Virus record (IMG/VR): IMGVR_UViG_3300027759_000462
Coordinates: 1 to 22,368 of that record
Strand: one strand, 5' to 3'
Source of the DNA: a virus
Length of the DNA: 22,368 nucleotides
In this document: piece by piece, positions 1,008 through 16,175 of the stretch
Numbering within the stretch: position 1 is the stretch's first letter
How the letters are laid out: every line of letters starts with the position of its first letter
Notes under the pieces: generated by a model
The model's database searches: none
The model's input: the letters and a program-made list of their open reading frames with translations, nothing else
What the model was told of the DNA's origin: nothing
Position numbers and translations under genes: made by a program

Positions 1008-1739
1008 ATGAGTTTATTTGATTTAGGAAAAAGTGGAGGCACTTCAGTAACAACACCAGAAATGACACCTGAACAGCGTCAGCAAATTCAGGCTCAAACA
1101 GAGTTTTTTACTAAAACTATTGCACCACAATATCAAGAAGCTGTGAAAGGTGCTAGAGACATTTACAATCTAGGTGCTCCGGGTGTGACTTATGCCGCAC
1201 AGAATTTAGCAGGTCAAGCTGGACAAGCACAACAAGCTCTTGGCAGCACTGGCGAAAGTGCTTTACGCACAGGTATCACTGGTCTGGAAAATTTGTTCAG
1301 CAACGAATATCAAGATCAACAGATGCAAGCCGCATTGGCGCCTGCACAAGCACAATATCAACAAAACTTAGCAGGCCTACAAGCCGGCTTTGGTGGCGCA
1401 GGTCAAATTGGATCAGCACGTCAAGCTCTAGCTAACACACAATTAGCCGGTACTGCACAACAACAACAACAGATGGCTGCTGCACAAGTACGCAAAGACA
1501 TTGAAGCACAGCGAGCTGCTGCTGCACAAGCCTTGGCTGGATTTGGTCAAGGCGGTATTGGTCAAGCACTTGGTGCCGCTGGCCAAGGTGTTTCAGCTGC
1601 TATGACTCCGTCAGATTATTACAACAAATATGCTGGTGTAATATTTGGAACACCTAGTGCCAGTTACAATCCGGATTTCCGAGGCACACAAGGCAGTTCA
1701 ACAAGCACCAACCAAATCAAAATGGGCATTGGCATCTAA
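1008..1739 (+). CDS. Ala/Gln-rich virion-type protein sharing the QIQAQTxFF module
   Basis: A 243-residue protein with a clear GGAG site before ATG 1008. About residues 20-65 carry a segment with QQIQAQTEFF, then YQEAVKGA and APGVT, which matches the protein at 11393-13261 far better than chance. The middle (about 65-190) is Ala, Gln and Gly rich and probably long amphipathic helix, with runs such as QQQQQ. The C-terminus is Ser/Thr rich and ends in a short Gly-Ile tail. No enzyme motif was seen. It lies 11 bases ahead of the transglycosylase gene in the same operon, which fits a small ejected or tail-associated protein such as those that accompany a large injected enzyme. Function is inferred only from place and composition. 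Confidence 0.85.
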   Translation: MSLFDLGKSGGTSVTTPEMTPEQRQQIQAQTEFFTKTIAPQYQEAVKGARDIYNLGAPGVTYAAQNLAGQAGQAQQALGSTGESALRTGITGLENLFSNEYQDQQMQAALAPAQAQYQQNLAGLQAGFGGAGQIGSARQALANTQLAGTAQQQQQMAAAQVRKDIEAQRAAAAQALAGFGQGGIGQALGAAGQGVSAAMTPSDYYNKYAGVIFGTPSASYNPDFRGTQGSSTSTNQIKMGIGI

Positions 1740-1750
1740 GGAAAAATATA

Positions 1751-4336
1751 ATGGATTTTATGGATATAGCAGGTAAGTATCTGCAAACAAAGTTGGATAC
1801 GGCCACACAACCAGATACAGAAGCCAATGTAAAACCTGTCACACAAACAATAACAACAGATCCTGTGACTGGTGAACAAATGATGACTGTGAAAGGTCGT
1901 CCAGAAGATTTGAGTGTTGGCAATCCAAACACACCAACTGTACTTCCGCCACTACAAACAAATCAATATTTGAATTTGGCCAATAGTGCAGATAAACGCC
2001 CAGTGGCATATCAACCACCTGTTGCTCCGGTATCTCCACAATCTTTACCTGCTGTTACTCCTGATCAAACCTATCAACGCATGATACAGGCTGAATCAGG
2101 TGGACAACAATACAATCCACAAGGTGGTGTATTGACCAGTCCCAAAGGTGCTATGGGTGTAGGACAAGTTATGCCCTCAACTGCTATGCAACCAGGTTAT
2201 GGTGTTCCTAGTATTTTTGACATGGCACAGCAACGTGGCATGCCAGTGGCCAATAGAGATCAAGCCACAGCACAACAACTACTAAGCAATCCTGAATTGA
2301 ATCGTAATTTTGGACAGAACTATTACAATGCAATGCAACAGCGTTTTCCAGGACAACCTGCAGCCGCAGTAGCGGCTTACAATGCTGGTCCAGGACGTGT
2401 GGGACAAAACATGCAGGCCAATGCTGGACAATTAAATGTCAGCCAACTGCCACAAGAAACACAAGGCTACTTGCAAAAGGTAGGCTTTCAACCTGGTCAA
2501 ACAACTCCTGCAGTGGTTGGCACAAATGCTCCATCTACCACAGTTCCACCTATTGCAGGTGATGCAGTGGCACAAGGCACATATCAAGATGTGACTGGAC
2601 AAACTGCTACCGAAGCCAATTGGCACGAATATTACGGCAAACAAGTTGTTAACAATTTAAACAATCCCGTTGAATTACAAAAATTATCTGAAGATCCAAA
2701 TGCTCCAAGTTTTGCCAAAGTTGCGGCCAGCAGACAAGCATTTGAATTGTTGAAAAACCGAAGAGATGAACAAGATGCTGTTCGTAAAGTTGATTCTGGT
2801 GATCAAGCTGCCATTGAAAAAGCATTCAAAAGTCGCAACAACGAAGGCAGTTATGTTTTAGCCTATTTGTATGGTCGTCTAGGTCTAAATGATCTAGCAC
2901 GAAGTGAACAAGAAAAATTAGGTGCTGGACGTGTTTGGGAACAAAATACTTTAGACGATGGTACAGTTGCATTGATACAACGTGCTTCTAATGGTATGCC
3001 TTTGTATGGCATTGACCAAAATGGTAAAGAATTGTCAGCCAAAGAACTAATTAGATTTGGTGGTGCTGCAGTCAAAGGTGTTGAACAAGGTGCTACAGTT
3101 TACAAAGATCCATTCTATCGATCTGAAGTGCGTGATGCACAAGGCAATGTTGTACAAGCAGCACAAGGTGTTGCTGGCAACTGGATCTTAGAACGCAGAC
3201 CAGGACGTGCTCCGGTGTTTCGTGAAGCTGGAACCAATCGTTTGGCATCACCTGAAGAAGCACGTAGACTCAATCCAACAGGTGTAAGTGGTCCTATTGA
3301 ACAACAGGCAGCTGCTGCCTACGCTGGTCGTGGTGCTGGTAAACAAGGTGAACAAGCTGCAGAAGGATTTGTAAATACACCGTTGCCTGGTATGCCTACA
3401 CAAATGCCACCAAGTACTCCAGGTGCTGTAACTACACCAGGTGCTCCAGGTGCTATGCCTACAACTCCTGTTTCAACTGCTGCTCCTGCTCCTGCACCTG
3501 CTGTAAACATTCCAAGTGCCAGTGCTAACATTCCTGTGTATGAGCAAAAAAGAGCAGCCAACATTGCAGAAAAACGTACTGAATCGTTTAACAAAATTAT
3601 TGATACAGAATATCGTGACAATGCTGGCAAAGGCGAAATTGTATCTAACAATCGTAAAATGCAATTTGATATTTTAAATCGTGATGATCCCACAACAGGT
3701 AAAAAAGTTGCTGAACAAATTACTGGTTTGTATAATGCTGCCAATGAAAATACTGGCAATCAAAAATTAACTATTATTCGTGATATCTTTACTGGTAAAT
3801 TGTTGCCAGATCAAGATGCTAGCAAACGTATTGCTGAATTGAATGTTAGTCCAGCAGTTAAAAGTGCGTTACAAGAATACAATTCTCTTAATGCTCAAAT
3901 CGCTGGACAGACTCTGCGTGAAACAGCAGGTCCTGGAAGTGTTAGTGATGCCGAACAACAAGCCAACCGTGCTCGTAACGTAGATATCACTCGTGCTCCA
4001 ATGTTGGGTGCTTACAACATGATGGCACAAAGTCAGTTTAATGCAGATATACAACGTTACAAAGCAGATTTGGCAGCAAGTCCAAATAATACTGCCAGTA
4101 ATGCTACTGCATTTGATCGTGACTTCCGTGCTCATCAATCACAATTGATCAAATCTTATCGTGAAGTTACTGAAGCACGTTTAAAATTTATTCAAGAAAA
4201 CGGATCAGGTCCAGGCGCCATACGTGAAGGATATAAACTTTATCCTGTGCCTGAATACGATCCACAAGCAGGCAATTGGAGATATTTGAAACCATTGGAT
4301 CAACATATCAAGAAAAAAGAAGGACAATCTTTATAA
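1751..4336 (+). CDS. Large internal virion protein with lytic transglycosylase domain
   Basis: An 861-residue protein. An SLT-type lytic transglycosylase domain lies at about residues 104-225: the motif QAESGG places the catalytic Glu at 115, followed by GAMGVGQVMPST (133-144) and AVAAYNAGPGRV (206-217), the three classic blocks of soluble lytic transglycosylases. Such domains cleave the MurNAc-GlcNAc bond of peptidoglycan. The remainder is unrecognised: a mostly helical region to about 535, a Pro/Ala/Thr linker (about 540-595), and a charged helical C-terminal third. Enzyme at the N-terminus of a long structural chain is typical of phage ejection proteins that open the cell wall when DNA enters. 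The start has an AAGGA site; the stop overlaps the next start (TAATG). Confidence 0.9.
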   Translation: MDFMDIAGKYLQTKLDTATQPDTEANVKPVTQTITTDPVTGEQMMTVKGRPEDLSVGNPNTPTVLPPLQTNQYLNLANSADKRPVAYQPPVAPVSPQSLPAVTPDQTYQRMIQAESGGQQYNPQGGVLTSPKGAMGVGQVMPSTAMQPGYGVPSIFDMAQQRGMPVANRDQATAQQLLSNPELNRNFGQNYYNAMQQRFPGQPAAAVAAYNAGPGRVGQNMQANAGQLNVSQLPQETQGYLQKVGFQPGQTTPAVVGTNAPSTTVPPIAGDAVAQGTYQDVTGQTATEANWHEYYGKQVVNNLNNPVELQKLSEDPNAPSFAKVAASRQAFELLKNRRDEQDAVRKVDSGDQAAIEKAFKSRNNEGSYVLAYLYGRLGLNDLARSEQEKLGAGRVWEQNTLDDGTVALIQRASNGMPLYGIDQNGKELSAKELIRFGGAAVKGVEQGATVYKDPFYRSEVRDAQGNVVQAAQGVAGNWILERRPGRAPVFREAGTNRLASPEEARRLNPTGVSGPIEQQAAAAYAGRGAGKQGEQAAEGFVNTPLPGMPTQMPPSTPGAVTTPGAPGAMPTTPVSTAAPAPAPAVNIPSASANIPVYEQKRAANIAEKRTESFNKIIDTEYRDNAGKGEIVSNNRKMQFDILNRDDPTTGKKVAEQITGLYNAANENTGNQKLTIIRDIFTGKLLPDQDASKRIAELNVSPAVKSALQEYNSLNAQIAGQTLRETAGPGSVSDAEQQANRARNVDITRAPMLGAYNMMAQSQFNADIQRYKADLAASPNNTASNATAFDRDFRAHQSQLIKSYREVTEARLKFIQENGSGPGAIREGYKLYPVPEYDPQAGNWRYLKPLDQHIKKKEGQSL

Positions 4337-5016
4337 TGGACAAAATGCCTACACAGGACTTACAGAGTCAGATTCAAGCAGCACGTGCCGATGGTTACAG
4401 TGATGAACAAATACAGGCTTTTTTAAATCCTCAACCTGTGCGTGAAACAGCATTACAGCCACAAGGCACAGGTCCAATGTCAACTACCACTGTACAAACA
4501 CCGGCAACACCTTGGGTTGATCGCGGTGCTGAAGAAACTGCAACTATACAAGCTGGCGGTTTACAAGCTGGATATGATGTGGCCAAATATGGTTTACCAG
4601 CAGCCGGTATTGGTTATGCACTTAAAAAGGGCATTGATGCATATAAACAAACAAAAATGCCACCGCCAAGTACTTTTACAGGTGGAGCAAATCCAGCATT
4701 TGACAAAGCACTAAGTCAACCGTATAATCCAACTGCACCACAAGGTGCTCCAGCGGCTCAACCACCAGTGGGTGGTCCAGCAGCAGCACAAGGTGCTACC
4801 TTTCTTGAAAGAATGGCTGCAATGGCCAGCAAATATGCTCCAGCCGCTCGTGTGGCCACAGGTGCTGGTGCTATGGTAATGCCAGGTAACGTAGGCCAAA
4901 ATTATGGTGCACAGTTTCCACAAACAGGTCCTATGCGTGGTATGGAAATTAATCCAACAACTGGTAGACCTTGGACTCCACAAGAACTGCAACAGTATTC
5001 TCAACAATATAGATAG
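4336..5016 (+). CDS. Small ejection-type virion protein
   Basis: A 226-residue protein starting at ATG 4336, which overlaps the upstream stop as TAATG and has AAGAAGGA ahead of it; an earlier in-frame ATG at 4276 lies inside the upstream gene and is less likely. Residues 7-32 form a short amphipathic segment (ARADGYSDEQIQAFL) of a kind often found at the N-terminus of phage internal virion proteins. The rest is Ala/Pro/Gly rich with a moderately hydrophobic stretch near residues 85-110 (KYGLPAAGIGYALKKG) and another near 165-185. The last residues (GRPWTPQELQQYSQQYR) are polar. Translational coupling to the transglycosylase gene suggests the two products act together in the particle. No catalytic motif was found. 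Confidence 0.85.
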   Translation: MDKMPTQDLQSQIQAARADGYSDEQIQAFLNPQPVRETALQPQGTGPMSTTTVQTPATPWVDRGAEETATIQAGGLQAGYDVAKYGLPAAGIGYALKKGIDAYKQTKMPPPSTFTGGANPAFDKALSQPYNPTAPQGAPAAQPPVGGPAAAQGATFLERMAAMASKYAPAARVATGAGAMVMPGNVGQNYGAQFPQTGPMRGMEINPTTGRPWTPQELQQYSQQYR

Positions 5017-5024
5017 GAACAGAA

Positions 5025-5504
5025 ATGAACATTAAAAATTTACAATTGGTACTAGAAGATACATTTTCAGGCAATTTTGTCAGTTACTATCGTAGCCATG
5101 TGGCACATGTGAATATCCAAGGACGTAATTTTTATGCAGACCATAAACTGCTACAAAAAGTGTATGAGTACTTTCAAGGCAACATTGATGTGCTAGCTGA
5201 AAAGCTACGCACAGTACGTGCCATGATGCCAGTGGACCTAATGACAGTGACCATGTCTAGTCCTGTTGCTGATCAAGCTGCTGTGGGTGATAGTGAAGAC
5301 CTGTTTGAACAGGTGTTGGAAACATTAGAAACCATGATCAATCAATATGTGGATTTGAACGAAGCTGCTGAAGAAGTCAACTACATTGACATTGCCAATT
5401 TTGCACAGGATCAAGTTGCTGTGTTGTCCAAGTTCCGTTGGATGATTGAAGCCACACTAGATCGTGACACTGACACAGAAGAAGATCCAGACACGGACGA
5501 CTAA
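5025..5504 (+). CDS. Dps-like ferritin-family protein
   Basis: A 159-residue protein with GGAACAG before its ATG. Residues 15-62 align by eye to the Dps core: HVNIQGRNFYADH matches the family pattern HWNxxGxxFxxxH, followed at the right spacing by an acidic pair in DVLAEK. Taking E. coli Dps H51, H63, D67, D78 and E82 as reference, the equivalents are H28, H40, Q44, D55 and E59, so four of five ferroxidase-site residues are kept and one Asp is Gln. A second pair of helices follows (about 90-145), as in the four-helix ferritin fold. The acidic tail (last about 12 residues) is unusual. Dps proteins form 12-mers that oxidise iron with peroxide and may coat DNA. The lone change could weaken iron oxidation. 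Fold call fairly sure, activity uncertain. Confidence 0.78.
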   Translation: MNIKNLQLVLEDTFSGNFVSYYRSHVAHVNIQGRNFYADHKLLQKVYEYFQGNIDVLAEKLRTVRAMMPVDLMTVTMSSPVADQAAVGDSEDLFEQVLETLETMINQYVDLNEAAEEVNYIDIANFAQDQVAVLSKFRWMIEATLDRDTDTEEDPDTDD

Positions 5505-5659
5505 TGGGACAACTGCTTAAATTTTCCCTGGAAGATCATCTAGCCGAATGTGAGCAACGTTACAACACCTTACTGGATCGCATAGATCAAACTGATCGTA
5601 AACTGAACAGAATTGAAGATTTAATTATTGAATTAAAAAAACTAGTACAGCGTCAATAA
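5504..5659 (+). CDS. 51-residue coiled-coil peptide
   Basis: The ATG overlaps the stop of the Dps-like gene (TAATG), which supports it as a real coupled gene although it is short. From about residue 11 to 49 it is one charged helix with hydrophobic residues at heptad spacing (LLDRIDQ, LNRIEDLIIEL, LKKLV), so a coiled coil is likely. Codon 16 is Cys. Its last seven bases overlap the end of the leftward gene at 5653-5865 tail to tail, so the rightward virion operon ends here; no hairpin terminator was seen between them. No function assigned. Confidence 0.7.
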   Translation: MGQLLKFSLEDHLAECEQRYNTLLDRIDQTDRKLNRIEDLIIELKKLVQRQ

Positions 5660-5865
5660 CGGCTGTTGTAGTAGGCCAGTACAACGTGCATAAATTCTTC
5701 TAGGCTGAAGCTACCACCTTCAACCTTGACACCGTTTTCTATCATCCAAATCCAAACCCGTTCAGGTTCATCTTCATCTATTTCTATTCTTATGTTGGCC
5801 ATATCTATTACCGGACCGTCTTGTGGTTCTGGTTTCCATTTAACACTTACTGTTCTATCTTTCAT
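5653..5865 (-). CDS. 70-residue hypothetical protein, leftward
   Basis: Second gene of the only leftward pair. Its ATG overlaps the stop of the acetyltransferase-like gene (ATGA), so it is translated by coupling. The protein is acidic in the middle (RIEIDEDEPERVWIWMIENG) with alternating hydrophobic residues that suggest beta strands, then a short helix (SFSLEEFMHVVLAYY). It could be a small alpha/beta domain or a partner of the upstream protein. No family was recognised. It ends convergently against the coiled-coil peptide gene with a 7-bp overlap, leaving no space for a terminator. Confidence 0.72.
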   Translation of the reverse strand: MKDRTVSVKWKPEPQDGPVIDMANIRIEIDEDEPERVWIWMIENGVKVEGGSFSLEEFMHVVLAYYNSRY

Positions 5866-6380
5866 TTTGGTATCCTATAAAATGCTGAAATGCCTCTTAT
5901 GATAAATCCTGCCTGTTCATGCAGGCGTAAAAAAGCCTGTTGTTCAATACGCATGGTACTGCTGTGTATGACCGGTATACCGCACATGGTTGCCCATAAC
6001 ACCCATTGTTGAATGATTTGTGCCAGCAAGGTAATTTTTTTACGTATAGGCAAATCAACTGCCACATGACTGAATCTGCCGTCGGCCATTTCATCTCGAC
6101 TGTATGTGGTATATGAACCACGTACCAACCAAGCCCAAGCAATGAGTTGATCGTTTTCTTCGGCCACAATAATTTGTTCATCAAACTGATTGAATGCTTG
6201 TCTTACTATACCTAGGCTTAAATTTTTGGCAAACAGATCAGTATCAAAACGGCTGATAGCCACCACTTCATCCCATAAAGGTTGTTGTGATATGGCCACT
6301 ATTCGATCAATGTCTGTTAGGTTTGCCAGGCGCCAAGTCCATGTGTCTTTTTTGGATGGTGCATATCGTTCTAAAATCAT
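5862..6380 (-). CDS. GNAT-like N-acetyltransferase
   Basis: A 172-residue leftward protein with AAGGAACTG before its ATG. The pattern is that of a GNAT fold: an N-terminal segment with an acidic helix (LANLTDIDRIVAIS), a strand pair ending QIIVAEENDQLIAWAWLV, a strand with HVAVDLPIRKK where the acetyl-CoA binding loop is expected (about 106-116), a helix, and a final part with HEQAGFIIRG, resembling the usual last GNAT helix and strand (LYxKxGF). The pyrophosphate-binding Q/RxxGxG/A loop is not cleanly visible, so catalytic activity is unsure. Such enzymes use acetyl-CoA to modify amines on small molecules or proteins; the substrate here is unknown. It is transcribed against the rest of the genome from its own promoter. 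Confidence 0.62.
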   Translation of the reverse strand: MILERYAPSKKDTWTWRLANLTDIDRIVAISQQPLWDEVVAISRFDTDLFAKNLSLGIVRQAFNQFDEQIIVAEENDQLIAWAWLVRGSYTTYSRDEMADGRFSHVAVDLPIRKKITLLAQIIQQWVLWATMCGIPVIHSSTMRIEQQAFLRLHEQAGFIIRGISAFYRIPK

Positions 6381-6451: not shown

Positions 6452-7023
6452 TGACCAAACATAGAGATAGACAATTTAATTATCGTGCAGGTGACTTCAT
6501 GATCAACCTGGAACGCTTTGAATCTAGATGTGAACCAGACCCTGCGGGATCAGACTGCATCATATGGACTGGTGTAAAAAACAACATTGGTTATCCATTC
6601 ATGGGAGCCAGACACATTGTGACAGACAAATACAAGATGGTCACTGGACACAGAATGGCTCTCACAATCAAACTGGGTAGGCCTATAGCCCCAGGTATGA
6701 ATGCCAATCACTCATGCCATAGAAGAGATTGTGTGAATCCTGACCATTTATTCGAAGGCACACAACGGCAAAAAGTGTTGGACATGGCACGTGATGGTAT
6801 CAAAACTGGTAGGCCTGCAGGCAATCCCTACAATCACAAACAACACAATCGCAAGTACCGTTATTCCGAAGAGGAAATACAAGCTGTGCGAACCATGCCA
6901 CCAAAACAAATAGCTGCCAAATACAACTTGCCAATTCGACGTGCTTACACAATGAAAGCTTCGTTTCGAAATACCTATCGTTGGCTACCATTACCCGATC
7001 AAATCAAAGGAGATAAAAAATGA
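6451..7023 (+). CDS. HNH homing-type endonuclease
   Basis: A 190-residue protein starting after AAGGAACTG. Residues 86-100 carry the HNH_3-type motif NHSCHRRDCVNPDHL: the first His (87) and the NPDHL Asn-His pair (96, 99) make the beta-beta-alpha metal active site, with Cys89 and Cys94 nearby. EGTQRQK after it is the usual follow-on of this family. The basic C-terminal half (about 120-175) contains a helix-turn-helix-like segment (YSEEEIQAVRTMPPKQIAAKYNLP) that would recognise DNA, as in free-standing phage HNH nucleases. It nicks or cuts DNA, possibly to spread itself or to exclude a rival phage. It is the first gene of a coupled run: its TGA overlaps the GroES start. Confidence 0.9.
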   Translation: MTKHRDRQFNYRAGDFMINLERFESRCEPDPAGSDCIIWTGVKNNIGYPFMGARHIVTDKYKMVTGHRMALTIKLGRPIAPGMNANHSCHRRDCVNPDHLFEGTQRQKVLDMARDGIKTGRPAGNPYNHKQHNRKYRYSEEEIQAVRTMPPKQIAAKYNLPIRRAYTMKASFRNTYRWLPLPDQIKGDKK

Positions 7024-7286
7024 CATTACAAGCAACAGGCACTAGATACGTAATTCGACCAGTAGAATTGACCATGGCGTCAGCTGGTGGCATCATACTT
7101 CGATCAACAGAAGACACACAATTGGCAGAAGTTGTTAGTATTGGCCCCCGGGTAGAAGAACCGCTACCTTTAGGCACCAAAATTGTGGTAAATTGGAACC
7201 ATACGGTGCCAGTAAAGCACGAAAACGAAGCCTTGTGGATCATAGAATCAGGTGCGGTAGCCGCAATATATGAGGAGAACGAATAA
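7020..7286 (+). CDS. groES: GroES-like cochaperonin (Cpn10 family)
   Basis: An 88-residue protein, close to the usual 90-100 of Cpn10, with a strong AAAGGAG site. Order of features: N-terminal strand with YVIRPVE, a mobile-loop position ending GGIIL (23-27), AEVVSIGP (36-43), then the strand block PLGTKIVVNW and the roof region. The segment GGIIL matches the hydrophobic tripeptide that docks on GroEL in this family. Cpn10 caps the host GroEL chamber; phage versions (T4 gp31 type) adapt it for a large capsid protein. The mobile loop looks short and lacks the usual Lys/Thr-rich stretch, so pairing with the host GroEL is inferred. Coupled on both sides (ATGA upstream, TAATG downstream). Confidence 0.88.
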   Translation: MTLQATGTRYVIRPVELTMASAGGIILRSTEDTQLAEVVSIGPRVEEPLPLGTKIVVNWNHTVPVKHENEALWIIESGAVAAIYEENE

Positions 7287-11392: not shown

Positions 11393-13261
11393 ATGGCCAC
11401 CAAACCCAAGAGCACAACACAAAAACTATCAGCAGCCAGTCAAACTGAAATGAAAAAGAATGCCACGGTGCGACCACCAACACCCACCGGTAATAGAGCA
11501 ACAGACAAACAGGCTGCCAACCAATTTGTAGCTGACTCAAGAAAGCAAACAGCTGATCGTGCAGCCGCAACCAAGGCAGCCACACTCCAACAGCAACAGT
11601 TAGATTACACCAGAGCCAATCCGTTACAAGGCACACGACCGCAGACAGCAGCAGCTAGAACACAAGTGGCACAGAGCCGTGCTCCTGCTGTGTCTCAGAC
11701 TGCAGGTCAACAGGCCAATGCCAAACGCATACAGGCTGAAGCAGCAGCTAGAACAGCTGCCCGACCCCAATCCGTACCTTACACAGGACCACAAGGACGT
11801 GATGCACAAGGTCGGCCCATCCAGGTGCCAGGACAAGCTCCAGCACCAGTTGGTAAACAAATGGGACCAGAATTTTTTCCTAAAGGACCTGGACCCATTG
11901 GCGGACCAGCTCCAGCACCACCAGGCATGGATACAATGCCAATGCCAGGCATGAACCCTATAGAAAACATGCCAGGCGGTGGAGGACCAACCCCAGAACA
12001 ACTTCGTGGCAAAATGGGCGGAATCAGACCAGGTGGACCAGGTGGTTTCAGACCAGGTATGTCGTTTGAAGAAATGAAACAACTGACGCCACCAGGTCAG
12101 GATCCAATGAGTTATTTTGGATTGCAAGGTCCAATGGGCGGAGCACCAGGAAATCCAGGCGCAACCGGCATCTACGGTACTGCCAAAGAGATGCCAATAT
12201 CAGATCCAGGACCAGAACAATATGCACCACCAGCACCACCAGTAACAAACTCTCCTATGCCAGAAGGTTATGGATCAACCTGGGAAGAATCATTGCCACG
12301 ACGTAATCAGCTGGCACAAGATTATCTAACCAGCAATCCTTATGATACCAACATGGGTGGCACACAAGACTTGTATAATCAATATGCGTTTTATAACACT
12401 AACTTAAATTATGGTACACCTGACCAACTTAAAAGTCCTGTGCAGAATTGGCAAGAATGGCTAAGTCAGAATCAAAATCCAGCCCCCACCCCCAGCCCTG
12501 ACATGTCAGGCTCTATTATAGCTTATCCTGGTAGACTCAATCCACAACAGCAACAACAGATACAAGCACAGACTGATTTCTTCGCTCAGACTTTGCAACC
12601 TACATATCAACAAGCTGTGTCAGGAGCACAAAACATGTACAATCAAAGTGCACCTGGCGTAACCAATTTAAATCCGCAACAACAACAGATACAAGCACAG
12701 ACTGATTTCTTTACTCAGACTCCACCAGGCGCAACCGGCATCTATGGTACTGCCAAAGAGATGCCAGTGCAGTTACCAATGAATATGGCCGACATGTATT
12801 CACAATTGGATTTTAACAATCCAGACTTACAAGCTGGTAAGGCCTATGTCAATCCGCAACAACAACAATTTGTTGACAATCAGCAGGCCGGCATATATGG
12901 CCAGTCTGCACCTGGACTTACTCCCGTTATGGGAGCCTCCAGTGGATTTATTCCAGGCATGAGTCAGCAACAATTTGATCAGGCATTCATGCCTGGTAAT
13001 CAACCCAACAACCTGGGTGCAGCCAATCAGCCAATGCAAAGCTATGGTCAACTGCTGTCGGGCAACACGCCCAATGCTGGATTGAATCCTCAGTTCAATA
13101 CCAACAGTTCACAACCTACAGGACAACTGCCTGGCAATGCTGGCAACTTTGGACAACAGCAACAGACCACACAGCAGGCCAATCCTGCACAGCCTAGCAA
13201 TTCTGGCAAGATGGGTGGCTCTGGTGGCCCAATGGGTCCAATCAACACATCAGCCCTGTAA
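11393..13261 (+). CDS. 622-residue Pro/Gln/Gly-rich protein with duplicated modules
   Basis: Start ATG with GGAA ahead of it. The N-terminus is basic, Ala/Gln-rich (to about 140). A long Pro/Gly/Met-rich part (about 140-300) resembles a collagen-like or linker sequence without strict Gly-x-y. From about 385 the QQQIQAQTDFF module appears, then YQQAVSGAQNMYNQSAPGVT, matching the protein at 1008-1739. A second copy of QQIQAQTDFF is joined to a second copy of PGATGIYGTAKEMP. Later parts are Gln/Asn rich. No enzyme motif was seen. Likely an elongated virion protein; its position between a candidate TerS and the small head-run genes is odd for an ejection protein. Low-complexity composition makes family assignment unsafe. 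Confidence 0.82.
   Translation: MATKPKSTTQKLSAASQTEMKKNATVRPPTPTGNRATDKQAANQFVADSRKQTADRAAATKAATLQQQQLDYTRANPLQGTRPQTAAARTQVAQSRAPAVSQTAGQQANAKRIQAEAAARTAARPQSVPYTGPQGRDAQGRPIQVPGQAPAPVGKQMGPEFFPKGPGPIGGPAPAPPGMDTMPMPGMNPIENMPGGGGPTPEQLRGKMGGIRPGGPGGFRPGMSFEEMKQLTPPGQDPMSYFGLQGPMGGAPGNPGATGIYGTAKEMPISDPGPEQYAPPAPPVTNSPMPEGYGSTWEESLPRRNQLAQDYLTSNPYDTNMGGTQDLYNQYAFYNTNLNYGTPDQLKSPVQNWQEWLSQNQNPAPTPSPDMSGSIIAYPGRLNPQQQQQIQAQTDFFAQTLQPTYQQAVSGAQNMYNQSAPGVTNLNPQQQQIQAQTDFFTQTPPGATGIYGTAKEMPVQLPMNMADMYSQLDFNNPDLQAGKAYVNPQQQQFVDNQQAGIYGQSAPGLTPVMGASSGFIPGMSQQQFDQAFMPGNQPNNLGAANQPMQSYGQLLSGNTPNAGLNPQFNTNSSQPTGQLPGNAGNFGQQQQTTQQANPAQPSNSGKMGGSGGPMGPINTSAL
12155..12766 (+). repeat. Repeat A: two 42-bp copies in the Pro/Gln-rich gene
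   Basis: Copies at 12155-12196 and 12725-12766 agree at 41 of 42 bases; both read PGATGIYGTAKEMP in frame. The one difference is third-position (TAC/TAT). Near-identity over a non-simple sequence means a recent duplication or gene conversion. Confidence 0.92.
12551..12721 (+). repeat. Repeat B: two 42-bp copies in the Pro/Gln-rich gene
   Basis: Copies at 12551-12592 and 12680-12721 agree at 40 of 42 bases and encode QQIQAQTDFF(A/T)QT. The second copy is followed three bases later by the second copy of repeat A, so 12680-12766 is a fusion of two segments found apart elsewhere in the gene. Confidence 0.92.
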
Positions 13262-15536: not shown

Positions 15537-16175
15537 ATGAGTCACATCGTGGCCAACCTACCGCCTGTGAAATGTTTTGTGCGTAGAGAGTTTCTTTATG
15601 ATCATGAATCAGGACATGGCGAACTGGAACCCGCCTGGTGGATCACAATCAAAAGTCTAAGAGGTCAAGCATTCCGTATTGAAAGTTATCTAAATCAATA
15701 TGGCGCATTGTATGACAAGTTGCCGCTACATGCCTACTGTTGGAAACCTATTGAAGGTGAACCTTTACCGTTAGACTATTTGCAACTATGGGACTGTCTC
15801 AGTTACGATATCACTGTGATCAAAAAAGCACAGTTGCAGAGTATGAAGTGTCGATTCAAATTAAAGTCGGGAGCCTGGATGTCAGGTGAATACATGTTCA
15901 CTGTGGACTCAGCACATCCAGACTTCAACACACTTGATACCGGCTTTTCAGAAGATGTAGAAGATCACAAAAGCTACAACTTCATACGGTGTGACAACGG
16001 ACAGTTTGCCGCACAGCCCAACAACAGACTACTGATTCTTGAACCCAGTAGCAATCCAAAAGAATTAAAGCGTCCAGATTTTCGAGTAGCAACTCAACGC
16101 TGGTCAGTAGAAACAGAAGCCAAGTGGGCACTAGGTGACACTGACACAGTCATGTACGAACACACACCCAAATGA
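15537..16175 (+). CDS. 212-residue conserved-type protein upstream of TerL
   Basis: ATG sits three bases after the previous stop, with no clear ribosome site, so coupling is likely. The protein opens with NLPPVKCFVRREFLYDH and has an ordered alpha/beta look (WWITIKSLRGQAFRIESYLNQYGALYDKLP). I have a general memory of similar proteins next to TerL in aquatic phages, but cannot name a family or function. Its TGA overlaps the TerL start (ATGATAG), so the two are made together, which may mean a role in packaging. Confidence 0.75.
   Translation: MSHIVANLPPVKCFVRREFLYDHESGHGELEPAWWITIKSLRGQAFRIESYLNQYGALYDKLPLHAYCWKPIEGEPLPLDYLQLWDCLSYDITVIKKAQLQSMKCRFKLKSGAWMSGEYMFTVDSAHPDFNTLDTGFSEDVEDHKSYNFIRCDNGQFAAQPNNRLLILEPSSNPKELKRPDFRVATQRWSVETEAKWALGDTDTVMYEHTPK

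Follow-up and report, generated by a model that had tools for sequence, protein, structure and literature searches.

We analysed a 22,368-base virus record over its whole length (hereafter the window). It carries matches to terminase, portal and major head proteins, a Prim-Pol primase and a helicase, and a tRNA search of the 22,368 bases found none. A group of plus-strand genes runs, in order, from a protein with a transglycosylase SLT domain through a 246-aa ORF, a Dps gene and a 51-aa ORF, up to a convergent ORF (Table 1). Judged by its architecture, the SLT protein would be an internal virion (ejection) protein of the T7 gp16 type. The ORF directly before Dps probably starts at an ATG at 4336 rather than at the listed TTG, and its homologues were found directly before Dps in many relatives. 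The 51-aa ORF is the probable last gene of the plus-strand operon.

Table 1. Features of the Dps locus in the window.
Feature	Position	Strand	Remarks
243-aa ORF	1008–1739	+	Part of this module; conserved before Dps in relatives; matches no database family
861-aa protein, transglycosylase SLT domain	1751–4336	+	SLT PF01464, E = 3.3e-10; PHROG endolysin/virion matches
ORF preceding Dps, listed from TTG, 246 aa	4276–5016	+	Pro/Ala/Gln-rich; no database family
Perfect sigma-70 consensus, TTGACA-17-TATAAT	4700–4728	+	Inside preceding ORF, 325 nt before Dps; sole 12-of-12 site in the window
AGGA, likely ribosome-binding site	5015–5018	+	Putative, read from sequence; 6 nt before Dps ATG; overlaps stop codon of preceding ORF
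Dps-type mini-ferritin, 159 aa	5025–5504	+	ATG start; ligands H28, H40, D55, E59; Q44; acidic C-terminal tail 146–159
51-aa ORF	5504–5659	+	ATG overlaps Dps stop (TAATG)
Convergent 172-aa ORF	5862–6380	−	Weak acetyltransferase match, E = 0.0068; marks end of Dps-containing operon

The sigma-70 consensus was considered as a dedicated Dps promoter and rejected. Among 80 relatives, a site matching at 11 or 12 of the 12 positions within 700 nt upstream of Dps occurred only in the near-identical L009, which keeps it, and in L016 (11-of-12, at −83), so the site is not a feature of the family.

Other parts of the window yielded separate observations. An 88-aa Cpn10/GroES-like protein at 7020–7286 (+) matched with E = 5.3e-05, just above the Pfam cutoff, and tblastn matches to this ORF in relatives were often on the opposite strand. 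A second iron protein was considered at 15537–16175 (+), where PHROG 3704 ('ferredoxin') matched with E = 4.6e-81; the label is doubtful, since Pfam gave nothing there and visual inspection of the sequence showed no cysteine cluster of the ferredoxin type. The tblastn placements of 1008–1739 and 11393–13261 overlap in relatives; the 622-aa ORF at the latter position therefore has a segment in common with the 243-aa ORF, and the pair is possibly a duplicated module.

Predicted fold and ferroxidase ligands

The product of 5025–5504 is a genuine Dps-type mini-ferritin. It matched the Pfam Ferritin family (PF00210) with E = 3.6e-13 and 50.1 bits (curated cutoff 24.5), PHROG 3636 with E = 2.4e-23, and HP-NAP (1ji4) with E = 2.7e-12 by phmmer; profile A2, built on the window Dps family, matched Dps chains with E down to 1.2e-22. 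An AlphaFold2 monomer model, with a 31-row family alignment as input, had a pLDDT of 92.9 and a pTM of 0.86. Its helices span residues 3–30, 36–63, 72–78 (BC), 90–117 and 121–144, with the Dps hallmark of a short BC-loop helix and no fifth (E) helix. The top Foldseek match in the PDB was B. brevis Dps 1n1q (TM 0.83/0.92, rmsd 1.3), followed by HP-NAP, and VIA-align gave a Z of 22.3 to the dodecameric B. subtilis MrgA. Both structure searches ranked Dps proteins first rather than another four-helix family, and the Dps-like identity given in the original prediction was borne out. A 12-subunit shell would be expected for such a protein. The gene is under purifying selection (NG86 dN 0.112, dS 0.956, window against the relative L002).

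When the window protein was aligned to E. coli K-12 Dps with MAFFT, residues H28, H40, Q44, D55 and E59 fell under H51, H63, D67, D78 and E82 (numbering including Met1), exactly as had been predicted: four of the five ligands are present and D67 is Gln. We aligned the family in 81 rows (64 distinct proteins), comprising the window and the 80 loci listed of 105 IMG/VR relatives. H28, H40, D55 and E59 were each invariant (81/81). Position 44 was Gln in 77 rows, Lys in two, Glu in one and Ala in one, a conservation that is inflated because one IMG/VR search pattern, DHKLLQK, contained Q44 along with H40. In the 32 rows without this string, all four ligands were again present (32/32), and position 44 was Gln in 28, Lys in two, Glu in one and Ala in one. 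Four further members of the family kept the ligands and had Gly, Gly, Lys and Lys at position 44. The family thus appears to have mostly settled on Gln at the D67 position.

Having four of the five residues is not peculiar to the window phage. We scanned IMG/VR separately with the canonical Dps ligand pattern, which matched at least 120 stretches, 80 loci of which are listed as an arbitrary sample. Among these listed matches, which carry the four ligands by construction since the scan required them, the residue at E. coli position 67 was Gly in 32 of the 80 ORFs, Asp in 12, Gln in 11, Glu in nine, Ser in seven, Ala in four, Asn in three, and Leu and Lys in one each. Replacement of D67 is therefore common in phage Dps, and HP-NAP carries Glu at the equivalent position (phmmer alignment). 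The predicted enzyme is very probably active.

Conservation of the locus in the phage lineage

The original prediction had put the gene after ejection-protein genes rather than among metabolic genes. This placement held in the window, where Dps follows the 861-aa SLT protein and the 246-aa ORF, and across the family found in a profile search of IMG/VR (105 relatives, 80 loci listed). At 68 of the 69 loci with more than 900 nt of upstream sequence, Dps started within 30 nt of the preceding plus-strand ORF or overlapped it. Where more than 3 kb of upstream sequence was present (51 loci), homologues of the ejection-module ORFs lay upstream on the same strand in 50; where the downstream sequence exceeded 2.5 kb (76 loci), a homologue of the convergent 172-aa ORF lay downstream within 2.5 kb of Dps in 69. 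Late expression of the predicted Dps operon is highly likely.

A search with the large terminase protein (TerL) gave 158 relatives, of which 80 loci are listed. Among these 80, every IMG/VR record of at least 29 kb contained Dps (9/9, the ninth being 3300002098_000052), and none joined the upstream module to the downstream genes without Dps, L088 being merely cut by the locus border. Dps is a core gene of a group of uncultured podovirus-like phages. We also checked for Dps in 41 records, namely MW202484 and the 40 records from which 41 of the 80 TerL loci come. It was matched in 13, and most of the 28 records without a match were short fragments and hence little informative. MW202484, a circular record of 41,762 bases, truly lacks the gene. 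It comes from an uncultured source and was, in the phage collection, the sole relative by TerL at close to 50% identity; no isolate of the lineage was found there.

Two long records, IMGVR 3300002091_000037 (L096 and L098; 54 kb) and 3300002098_000052 (L097 and L138; 50 kb), each contain two different TerL genes of the lineage, about 35 kb apart. These contigs represent two related phages joined, either by assembly or in nature.

To look for a recent acquisition of Dps from a host, or for a known host, genome contigs were scanned with profile A2 and with TerL. The pattern was matched by 49 stretches in the first scan and by eight in the second, and none was confirmed; such scans reach close relatives only, and therefore do not exclude relatives in bacteria.

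Dps genes in packaging and head modules of other phages

Virus ferritins had been thought uncommon when the gene was first described, which does not agree with the numbers found here. In INPHARED, 136 of 50,697 phage records matched an Aeromonas phage Dps, in addition to the 105 IMG/VR relatives and the 120 or more stretches of the motif scan, and DPS proteins have been reported in gut and Lactobacillus phages (PMC8008677 and PMC6669764, in their passages on DPS). Phage Dps as such is therefore already known. In the passages of PMC12796354, PMC7368026 and PMC5648845 that came up, 'DPs' or 'DPS' denotes other things.

The 80 listed loci of the motif scan held one Dps ORF each, 70 of them stand-alone (at most 230 aa) and ten longer. 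Among these matches, seven of the ten long ORFs had the Dps domain fused in frame to proteins of the head-maturation-protease or portal type. Four contained a Peptidase_S78 prohead protease (L243, L209, L182, L233) and one matched head maturation protease PHROG 2753 (L240); L191 and L193 matched PHROGs 859 (portal) and 21470, and one of the two also a head maturation protease family. The other three (L180, L225, L177) had other partner domains or none, L180 being a Dps with DUF5824. Independently, BFVD lists proteins that are named prohead protease and contain a Dps fold.

For the 70 stand-alone loci, a neighbour was defined as the closest same-strand ORF that was 130 aa or longer and lay no more than 1.5 kb away, which gave 57 upstream and 49 downstream neighbours. 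Among the matches listed, Dps lay directly after the small terminase gene (TerS) at ten loci, directly before TerL at eight and between the two at seven, so that eleven adjoin terminase genes; the terminase matches were direct for L178, L190, L223, L239 and L215, and the other assignments come from BLAST clustering with these and from the family tally. In the seven TerS-Dps-TerL arrangements (L178, L188, L190, L196, L223, L232, L239) the gaps were of a few bases. A further four of the 70 listed genes lay directly after a portal gene, and no link to packaging genes was seen for 55. The commonest other named neighbour was a cytidyltransferase (8 of 106 neighbours).

A 98-row tree placed the window Dps family in a single group (support 98/98), and likewise the portal-adjacent Dps. 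The TerS/TerL-associated Dps needed three changes (two forced) and the protease fusions five (three forced). Since such forms sit on separate branches, it appears that Dps was taken into head and packaging modules on several occasions. In the one open-licence library that the literature search covered, we found no mention of Dps-prohead protease fusions, of the TerS-Dps-TerL arrangement or of a lineage with Dps as a core gene of its ejection operon; within this scope, the fusions and the terminase and portal placements are new.

Proposed function and comparison with known systems

Our best explanation, to which we give a probability of roughly 60%, is that the window Dps is a late-made ferroxidase that guards the phage DNA through iron and peroxide chemistry, possibly inside the virion. 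The original prediction had put forward DNA protection, packaging in virions and iron storage, with no preference among them. The protein would be made late in infection, from among the last genes of the operon for internal virion proteins. Its inter-subunit site (H28, H40, D55, E59) would bind Fe(II), oxidise it with hydrogen peroxide and store the ferric product, and phage DNA would thereby be spared Fenton damage during packaging, storage or delivery. The likeliest place of action would be the assembling or finished virion; the shell would lie in the head and perhaps accompany the ejection proteins into the next host.

The linkage to ejection genes and the placements among packaging genes hint at a role of Dps on the virion or within it. 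In favour of a virion link are the seven protease or portal fusions among the ten long ORFs, the TerS, TerL and portal neighbours, the separate branches on which these occur, and the case of Proteus phage Privateer, whose Dps was found by mass spectrometry in CsCl-purified virions, as stated in the relevant part of PMC7881722. Against it stand the 55 of 70 loci with no packaging tie and the placement among metabolic genes in Aeromonas phage 4_4572, in Lactobacillus phages, where Dps lies among or close to genes for nucleotide metabolism and replication (PMC6669764, passage on these genes), and in S-EIV1, where it adjoins sulfate adenylyltransferase. Coliphage SU10 also yielded a DPS-domain protein (6 peptides, 35.8% coverage) from PEG-precipitated phage without CsCl purification (PMC4281155, in its part on this protein); the SU10 protein is listed as a middle gene product, and Dps in phage preparations of this group may therefore be carry-over. 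Both the SU10 and the Privateer protein are distantly related to the window Dps. The behaviour of the fused and TerS/TerL-associated forms need not transfer to the window Dps, because the latter is a separate clade. Co-transcription with ejection genes fits a late cytoplasmic protein equally well, and we regard the presence of Dps in the virion as close to an even bet.

The main rival to virion-borne protection is a cytoplasmic stress gene, with Dps acting only in the infected cell, where it would lower free iron and peroxide so that the host survives until lysis; its place in the operon would then reflect late expression and nothing more. We consider this doubtful, though well short of improbable. 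It is the reading given in the passages on DPS in PMC8008677, for 36 gut phage genomes in addition to the 'Gratiaviridae', and in PMC6669764, for Lactobacillus phages, both of which propose a role against oxidative stress. Several isolates have Dps among metabolic genes. The host dps gene was among the most induced genes during YerA41 infection (PMC7354516, passage on host expression), which makes iron and peroxide stress in infected cells plausible. However, a purely cytoplasmic role leaves unexplained the repeated placement of Dps in packaging and head modules, its in-frame fusion to proteins of the head-maturation-protease or portal type, and its presence in the purified Privateer virions.

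The window Dps is strongly acidic, with a net charge of −19 and a pI of 4.2 (E. coli Dps: −4 and 5.7); over the 81 family rows, the net charge ranged from −22 to −8 (median −15). The acidic C-terminal tail singled out in the original prediction as unusual (DRDTDTEEDPDTDD) is present and is mostly confined to the sub-branch of the window and a few other sequences, most of the 81 aligned proteins stopping at about residue 143. At the other end (MNIKNLQL), helix A of the AlphaFold2 model begins at residue 3, which leaves no basic flexible N-terminal tail. Some Dps proteins bind DNA by routes other than this tail, and PHROG 3636 is labelled 'DNA binding protein'. Nevertheless, with no basic tail and so acidic a surface, E. 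coli-style DNA binding is unlikely, and a nucleoid protein that coats or condenses phage or host DNA has little probability; the title of one solved Agrobacterium Dps structure describes DNA protection in the absence of binding. For the same reasons, protection by the window Dps would be chemical, and not through coating of DNA.

A catalytically dead shell, in which the four-helix protein serves as a building block of the internal core and the replacement of D67 has disabled its metal site, would agree with the Gln found in 77 of 81 rows and with the position of the gene beside internal virion proteins, but it is very improbable given that the other four ligands are invariant (81/81) and that position 67 varies in other phage Dps too. 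Dps shells store iron, and one might suppose a depot in the virion or dying cell that supplies iron to progeny or for adsorption, a 'Ferrojan horse' type of idea that we consider equally remote. Iron in phage particles is discussed in PMC10980836, but the hypothesis set out there concerns tail construction and iron receptors, and nothing in the window ties Dps to tails.

A broader extension of late-made, virion-associated protection would be that phages have repeatedly recruited Dps as an enzyme of the capsid lumen, whether by making it with the ejection proteins, by placing its gene between the terminase genes or behind the portal gene, or by fusion to the head-maturation protease; we hold this tentatively, as somewhat more apt to fail than to hold. 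If true, a working iron- and peroxide-scavenging shell in the virion would guard the packaged genome and perhaps enter the next cell. Phage Dps genes have hitherto been read as host stress-tolerance genes. Given their repeated link to packaging and head assembly, including the protease fusions, it can now be asked by experiment whether the virion brings along an antioxidant enzyme of its own. Because Dps occurs in Kuravirus-type laboratory coliphages, ordinary tools would suffice for an answer.

Compared to known systems, the window Dps shares with bacterial Dps, HP-NAP and MrgA the fold, the BC helix, the four ferroxidase ligands and the length. It differs from them in having Q44 for D67 and V29 for W52, in its strong acidity and missing N-terminal tail, and in being phage-encoded, and its identity to bacterial Dps-type structures is about 12–26%. 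The best viral structure match was A0A6J7WGJ1 in BFVD, a 151-aa Dps of an uncultured Caudovirales phage with 39% identity to the window protein. In Pithovirus, a ferritin-like protein is merely named in the relevant passage of PMC9611531. The protease and portal fusions (the seven above and A0A6J7XDU5, A0A6J7WPK9 and A0A6J7WIS1 in BFVD) contain, like the window Dps, a ferritin domain with the ligand motif, but they are fused and belong to other phage lineages, whereas the window Dps is stand-alone.

The C3 podophages (Kuravirus, Privateer, GAP52 and the Aeromonas LAh phages) likewise encode a stand-alone Dps, which is distant from that of the window (27% identity over 64% of the query for the Aeromonas phages). 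Aeromonas phage 4_4572 has its Dps among genes of nucleotide metabolism and keeps Asp at position 67. Like the window phage, the 'Gratiaviridae' and other gut phages and the Lactobacillus plantarum phages (Semele, Bacchae and relatives) encode a DPS that may act against oxidative stress. These are different phage groups, in which the passages on DPS read the protein as helping the host to tolerate oxygen or iron and propose no link to the virion.
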